NCBI GenBank assembly: GCA_020850535.1
Contig: JADZEM010000031.1
Location: 1-62,860, forward strand
DNA length: 62,860 bases
Origin: Chloroflexota bacterium
Lineage (GTDB): Bacteria > Chloroflexota > UBA6077 > JACCZL01
Reading direction: 5' to 3'
How positions within the stretch are numbered: the stretch's first letter is position 1; each line of letters starts with the position of its first letter. Below are positions 11,877 to 12,823 of the stretch, one piece after another. The position numbers were made by a program, and so were the translations under genes. The notes under the pieces are model-generated. The model worked only from the letters and a program-made list of their open reading frames with translations, was not told the DNA's origin and did no database searches.

Positions 11877-12332
11877 TCAGCCGCGGTGGCCGGGGTAGGC
11901 CGGCCCGCGCTCCGAGTACTCGGCCACGATGCGGGTGTGGATCTCCGCCCAACTGTTGCCTGCGTTCGCCCAGGCAACGGCGTCGAGCGCTTCATCCTGG
12001 CACGTCTCGCAGCCCGAGGCGTGCTCCTCGACCTCCCCATTGGCCTGCACGAAGCAGTCGGCAAGGTTGATGTGCGGCTTCGGCATCACGCCGCAGCCGC
12101 AGTAGCAGGGGAGCGTCGCCATCAGCTCGAGGTTCGCGAACGCCACCGAGTAGGCGTTGCGGGATTTTGGCGAGCGGGAGACCCAGGCCGGCCAGCGGCC
12201 TGTCGGACCGGGGCCGCCGCTCGCGCCGAACCAGCGCTCGCTCGCCCGGCCGACGGCGGCCCAGGCAGCCACGCCGCCCAGCCCGAGCAGCCCGCCGAGG
12301 ACGGCGCGTCGCGCGATCGGTCTGGCATGCAT
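11877..12332 (-). CDS. PCYCGC-motif exported protein
   Basis: This is a 151-residue protein of the family of unknown function named for its PCYCGC motif, here at residues 75-80, with further cysteines at 93, 108 and 111 (CETCQDE). The N-terminus has an Arg pair followed by a Gly/Ala/Leu-rich hydrophobic stretch (residues 8-30), so it is exported or membrane anchored. The ATG at 12332 overlaps the stop of the upstream gene as TGATG, so the two are translationally coupled. That neighbour is the candidate selenoprotein with a Cys-Sec pair, which suggests a joint thiol-redox or metal-handling job outside the membrane. Heme or copper binding is possible. The function is not established. Confidence 0.85.
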   Translation of the reverse strand: MHARPIARRAVLGGLLGLGGVAAWAAVGRASERWFGASGGPGPTGRWPAWVSRSPKSRNAYSVAFANLELMATLPCYCGCGVMPKPHINLADCFVQANGEVEEHASGCETCQDEALDAVAWANAGNSWAEIHTRIVAEYSERGPAYPGHRG

Positions 12333-12823
12333 CAGCCGGACACCGCCTTCAGCGTCAGGGTCACAAGGGGCGTCTCCGGGCTGTCGGTGGCGAGTCGGAT
12401 CTCGAAGCGGTGCGGGCCGCCCATGCCGGTGTGCATGATGTAGGGGTAGCGCACGGTGATGGTCTCGCCGGGCTTGACGACCGTCGAACTGACGGCAGGG
12501 GTGGCCGGTCAACAGCCCTCCAGCATCTGCACCTTCGGGTTGCCGGTCAGGCGGACGGGCTGGCCCCCGGTGTTCGCCAGCGAGAACTTGCCCTCAACCA
12601 TCTTGTCGAACGGGACGCGCCCGAGATCGACGGTGGCCTCGCTGGCGACGAGACGCCCGGGGGCGCTGGCGTCAGTCGCGACGCGCGCCGTACCTGACTG
12701 CAGCCAGCCCGGCTCCGTCCAGACAAGCGCTGCGACGATGACGGTGAGGACGAGCAGGCCACCGGCGAGCAGCAGCGGGCGGGCAACGGAGCGTTGGTGC
12801 GCCTTGCGCGTGCGTTTCGACAT
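12332..12823 (-). CDS. Candidate selenoprotein, DUF1573-like, Cys-Sec motif
   Basis: Read with one recoded TGA, this is a 163-residue membrane-anchored protein. Residues 15-35 form one transmembrane helix; from about residue 60 the chain looks like a DUF1573 Ig-type domain (VDLGRVPFDKMVEGKFSLAN). Cys104 is followed by an in-frame TGA at 12509-12511 (residue 105). The same frame then continues for 58 codons with sensible content (VVKPGETITVRYPYI, GPHRFEIRLATDSPE, PLVTLTLKAVSG), completing the domain, and stops at TGA 12332-12334. Related proteins are recalled to have Cys-Cys here. A hairpin fitting bacterial SECIS rules follows the TGA. The final stop overlaps the next start as TGATG. The alternative is a truncated 104-residue protein or a nonsense mutation. 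Sec machinery genes are not in the window. Confidence 0.75.
12480..12511 (-). promoter_or_regulatory. Bacterial SECIS-like hairpin after in-frame TGA
   Basis: In the mRNA, the TGA at 12511-12509 is followed by 18 bases and then the loop AGUUC. The stem GCCGUC (12496-12491) pairs with GACGGU (12485-12480) in six pairs, one of them G-U. The short apical loop has G in its second position followed by U, and the UGA-to-loop distance of 18 falls in the 16-37 range described for bacterial SECIS elements. A further CCGG/CCGG pairing could extend the base. SelB binding is inferred. Confidence 0.65.

Follow-up and report, generated by a model that had tools for sequence, protein, structure and literature searches.

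A predicted selenoprotein with a Cys-Sec pair in a DUF1573-domain family of Chloroflexota, encoded beside a PCYCGC-motif partner

We asked whether a TGA codon on the minus strand of a Chloroflexota contig ends a gene or encodes selenocysteine (Sec). In the window, the whole 62,860-nucleotide stretch of DNA that was analyzed, a frame beginning with the ATG at position 12823 runs for 104 codons ending in EGC, meets a TGA at 12511-12509, and continues for another 58 codons to a second TGA at 12334-12332. An earlier sequence-only reading had proposed that the first TGA (12509-12511), directly after a Cys codon, encodes Sec in a DUF1573-like membrane protein. Translation of the minus strand gave the same coordinates, and the second stop overlaps the next start as TGATG, as that reading had it, with the A of the stop serving as the A of the next gene's ATG (12332). 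Third-position GC is 0.88 upstream of the first TGA and 0.93 downstream of it. The 163-residue read-through protein matches Pfam DUF1573 (PF07610) with 28.8 bits, where the gathering cut-off is 26.1 bits. As the match covers residues 60-159, the domain spans the TGA, in agreement with the proposal that the 58 further codons complete it. The predicted selenoprotein coding sequence thus occupies 12332-12823 on the minus strand, with UGA codon 105 as the predicted Sec directly after Cys104.

Relatives of the protein carry the interruption with it. All clear matches (E < 1e-12) in a set of 61, and then of 400, genomes of relatives and of the phylum contained exactly one TGA in frame, in the same position each time, and the same TGA is found in a paralog in the source genome (contig C68, 68% identity). 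Because this codon recurs in dozens of independent assemblies, we regard a sequencing error at the TGA as untenable. A scan of genome contigs with the window protein as a single query, a method that reaches close relatives only, returned no match. An alignment-based scan, whose seed M[HS]xGM[GD]GPH lies outside the Sec motif, recovered 134 relatives from a collection of genomes of 84,980 species, and 80 of them were kept. At the Sec column, the kept loci have 68 TGA codons, 12 TGT or TGC codons and nothing else, counts that derive from a query alignment built from Sec forms and may under-sample Cys forms. The surrounding motif is E-G-C-[U/C]-P-P. Only Sec or Cys therefore stands opposite residue 105, and the homologs, rather than ending at residue 104, read on past this position with either TGA or a Cys codon there; the Cys-Cys relatives that the sequence-only reading had named do exist, as these 12 loci. 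Most of the 80 loci belong to Chloroflexota, and the others are labeled Methylomirabilota, Rokubacteria, Actinomycetes, Acidimicrobiia (Actinomycetota) and Desulfobacterales. To explain the Sec and Cys forms, the family tree requires about seven changes between them (6-7 across bootstraps), only two of which are forced by well-supported branches; replacement between the two residues has thus probably happened repeatedly. In one Anaerolineales locus (PFL50; L095, about 2270-2310), the domain's first half is interrupted by a stop other than TGA (KFNI*KTF), indicating a pseudogene or an assembly error.

Downstream of the UGA lies a candidate apical hairpin of a Sec insertion element (SECIS), at 12480-12496 on the minus strand. 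It is 17 nt long and sits at +15 to +31 counted from the T of the TGA, with a 6-bp stem (GCCGUC/GACGGU) and an AGUUC loop that contains a conserved G-U and starts 18 nt past the TGA, just as had been described from the letters alone. Of 72 Sec genes, 70 form all six pairs; all 72 have the loop G, and 71 have the U that follows it. Among 93 offsets around the TGA, that of the hairpin was the best (mean of 5.97 pairs, against 4.46 for the next). In an alignment of 28 sequences, 98.8% of cells are paired and all six pairs show double-sided changes, in 35 cells compared with 8.8 in shuffles. Covariation in the same alignment reaches 0.710 versus 0.290 when shuffled, and it collapses in versions in which the stem is slid. 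The folding energy of the window hairpin alone is not significant (z of -1.2 over 71 nt and -1.9 over 31 nt). The case for a SECIS is accordingly a comparative one, and we consider the pairing and covariation across Sec genes decisive for the predicted assignment.

The family offers a clean natural comparison of Sec and Cys forms in which decay of the SECIS can be followed: the six pairs are kept in 2 of 12 Cys genes and degraded in the other 10. The two exceptions (L051:2673-3155 and L054:5001-5489, Thermoflexus/Anaerolinea) keep six pairs, three of them wobble, and branch with a Sec form. Their weakened hairpin is apparently a relic of a recent change from Sec to Cys.

The source genome (7.65 Mb, 96% complete) is equipped to insert Sec. 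It has one strong tRNA-Sec, scoring 65 bits and assigned the anticodon TCA by ARAGORN, where the tRNA-Ser of the same genome reaches 40.5 bits in the same scoring. SelA (C199:4975-6054, E 1.6e-135) shares a contig with a SelB winged-helix domain (C199:3395-3547), and SelD is present as well (E 5.1e-116). The selA, selB, selD and tRNA-Sec genes that the sequence-only reading had named as a check are thus all there. SelD itself (contig C53, 26913-27836) has an in-frame TGA at the classical place, giving HGAG-U-ACK (HGAGUACK); read in this way, it is a selenoprotein and an independent positive control. Automatic annotation may shorten this SelD too, given its in-frame TGA. Across the 50 genomes tested, a strong tRNA-Sec, defined as 60 bits or more by a threshold picked after the scores were seen, occurs in 34 of 39 genomes with a Sec form versus 6 of 11 with a Cys form.

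Given this machinery, the continuation of the homologs, the shared TGA of the paralog and the covarying hairpin, the window gene very probably encodes a selenoprotein, with Sec predicted at UGA 105. The UGA would be decoded by tRNA-Sec(UCA) and SelB, with the downstream hairpin acting, on comparative grounds, as the SECIS. An alternative is that a suppressor tRNA or a reassigned code makes the UGA specify Cys, Trp or Gly. Sequence is the sole type of data here, and Cys-decoding UGA suppressor tRNAs exist in other bacteria and provide a precedent. Yet the genome has complete Sec machinery, a tRNA-Sec with a TCA anticodon and a Sec-type SelD; the hairpin, for which a reassigned code would have no use, is held by compensatory changes; and homologs have Cys at this column, never Trp or Gly. 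We hold such decoding to be very improbable. That the TGA is an ordinary stop, leaving a 104-residue product followed by a decaying remnant or chance frame of 58 codons, is hardly credible: standard gene callers would end there and the local fold energy is unremarkable, but this reading is refuted by the Sec/Cys column, where 12 genes read in frame with a Cys codon for the TGA, by the covariation of the hairpin, and by a downstream part that is conserved in dozens of lineages, makes up the latter half of the DUF1573 domain and includes the majority of the invariant positions (P118, M130, G133, M134, G136-H138). Without a specific model, annotation pipelines can be expected to truncate proteins with Sec at this site at the UGA and so to lose from view the half that has most of the conserved residues.

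What kind of protein does the read-through frame specify? AlphaFold2 gave a single N-terminal helix (residues 19-35) followed by a confident Ig-like domain of the DUF1573/HYDIN type, with pLDDT at or above about 90 in almost every block from residue 51 onward. The helix is hydrophobic in sequence and is predicted to span the membrane (12719-12769, minus strand), which would place the domain outside the cytoplasm. The nearest solved fold is PDB 2qsv (Z 12.8, rmsd 2.5 over 105 residues), followed by HYDIN, VesC and VesB at Z of about 11. The likeness to Ig-like (ASH) domains of the HYDIN/VesB/MSP type is one of fold only and implies no shared function. Across 58 aligned sequences, all of which match PF07610 at E up to 1, the invariant positions are G68, N84, G103, C104, U/C105, P118, M130, G133, M134, G136, P137 and H138, and H131 is nearly invariant. 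Several of these form a conserved loop, M130-H131-x-G133-M134-[GD]-G136-P137-H138 (12410-12436, minus strand), a candidate metal or redox site together with Cys104-Sec105. From the strand order in the model, the Cys-Sec loop and the M-H-x-G-M-x-G-P-H loop are expected to share one end of the sandwich. The product would accordingly be a membrane-anchored, extracytoplasmic Ig-like domain with a vicinal Cys-Sec pair.

DUF1573 selenoproteins have already been predicted, with the motif UGC (PMC9312934, PMC13188914), which tempers the novelty of the candidate while leaving its reading as a selenoprotein in place. OS_HP2 (NF041425) appears, by its Pfam domain and its U-G-C-T motif, to be the DUF1573 entry of those reviews, and one could suppose that the window protein is simply OS_HP2. 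Both have a DUF1573 Ig-like domain in which a single Sec, encoded by UGA, sits in the same loop between strands, both are predicted bacterial selenoproteins, and 47 of the 58 members match NF041425 weakly (best 6.9e-10). The two Sec residues fall in the same column with MAFFT but a few positions apart with HMMER, so that their equivalence is ambiguous. In contrast, the window protein scores 13.9 bits against NF041425, under the cut-off of 100. Its subfamily has Cys directly before Sec (G-C-U-P), whereas in OS_HP2 Cys comes two residues after Sec (U-G-C-T), and it differs further in its conserved M-H-x-G-M-[GD]-G-P-H loop, its mostly Chloroflexota distribution and its PCYCGC partner (below). 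A true OS_HP2 protein (L128; 132 bits, U-G-C-T, without the M-H-x-G-M-x-G-P-H loop) coexists with a G-C-U-type DUF1573 protein (L130) in one Desulfobacterales genome, that of locus L115. Because of the low score, the different motif and this coexistence, identity with OS_HP2 is unlikely, and the window subfamily looks like a sister of OS_HP2 rather than a member.

The Cys-Sec form has no description among the NCBIfam selenoprotein models or in PMC9312934 and PMC13188914. The deep-Sep paper lists other new families and leaves Chloroflexota unmentioned. The sister subfamily is widespread, with about five phyla among the kept genomes, and apparently uncatalogued, and it extends the selenoproteome of Chloroflexota.

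It also points to a partner. The gene whose start overlaps the selenoprotein stop (11877-12332, minus strand) encodes a PCYCGC-motif protein that scores 48.4 bits against PF13798 (cut-off 25) and contains the PCYCGC motif, along with six invariant Cys, two invariant His and an RR-type N-terminus. We presume it to be a functional partner. DUF1573 genes and PCYCGC genes number exactly two each in the source genome, and they form two head-to-tail pairs in which the PCYCGC gene lies directly downstream of a DUF1573-Sec gene; the second, paralogous operon lies at C68:11751-12215 of the source genome and L131:5202-5726. A PCYCGC-type motif on the same strand accompanies 51 of 78 homologous loci, among them 11 of the 12 Cys forms.

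The partner's family is that of the OS_HP4 CYCXC (seleno)proteins (NF041379; PF13798), although its score against NF041379 is 62.1 bits, under the cut-off of 90. Some known OS_HP4/PCYCGC members are themselves selenoproteins, with UxxC (PMC13188914), whereas the partner here has Cys throughout. The best solved relative of PCYCGC is CcmH, the apocytochrome c thiol reductase, a weak likeness that serves as a lead only: a PDB profile match had E 0.061, Foldseek ranked CcmH first at E 4.1, and its VIA-align follow-up did so too at Z 4.7, all below trust thresholds, as was the weak CcmH Pfam match (E 0.008) in 2 of 24 PCYCGC members. PF13798 proteins such as those at 11877-12332 in the window and at L127:1706-2152 show the likeness in a C-x-x-C and a helical C-terminal part. 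PCYCGC proteins may represent a family of thiol-redox proteins with a link to cytochrome c maturation. Our literature search on PCYCGC function turned up nothing beyond a lipoprotein listing.

Pfam searches on examples of the recurrent neighbors identified COX2/CuA-type cupredoxins, cupredoxin-cytochrome c fusions, cytochrome c and Fer4_5 (NapH-like) membrane proteins, as well as multicopper oxidases, HMA and P-type ATPases, FTR1, DsbD_TM and redoxins. A cupredoxin-containing cluster occurs in 39 loci and a Fer4_5-type cluster in 30, both as raw counts uncorrected for background. A cupredoxin gene is missing from the immediate neighborhood in about half of the loci, among them that of the window.

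The PCYCGC pairing, the copper and cytochrome neighbors, the invariant C, U/C, M, M and H residues with a further, nearly invariant H, and the weak likeness of PCYCGC to CcmH suggest that the Cys-Sec protein and its Cys-rich partner form a pair that works outside the membrane in selenol/thiol redox chemistry or in Cu(I) handling. We consider this broad role likely, less certain than the Sec assignment. Its targets would be the metal or thiol centers of cupredoxin/CuA and cytochrome c proteins, with the Cys-Sec pair working together with the Met/His loop. That about half of the loci lack an adjoining cupredoxin gene speaks against a copper or redox role, which is drawn from gene neighborhood and residue conservation. 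A pure selenol/thiol oxidoreductase with no copper role, engaged in reduction of apocytochrome c or in DsbD/TlpA-type reduction, is a serious alternative, quite plausible if not quite probable. It would account for the vicinal Cys-Sec, for a partner that is weakly CcmH-like in several searches and for the DsbD_TM and redoxin genes near some members, but thiol exchange alone leaves unexplained the conserved Met/His loop and the many copper-protein neighbors. Within the broad role, we advance only tentatively a more specific proposal of Cu(I) handling for CuA/cupredoxin-cytochrome c assembly with a CcmH-like PCYCGC partner, which would put Sec in copper-center maturation; a literature search for a link between DUF1573 and copper found none. 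PCuAC and Sco are periplasmic copper chaperones with Met/His or Cys ligands in a small extracytoplasmic domain, serving CuA sites. The window protein is not a member of either group and would be like them in the proposed function, not in sequence.

A recurrent Chloroflexota operon (L127:1706-5000 and L125:3830-7737) comprises genes for PCYCGC, a CuA-like cupredoxin, a NapH-like Fer4_5 membrane protein, a cupredoxin-cytochrome c fusion and a DUF1573-Sec/Cys protein.
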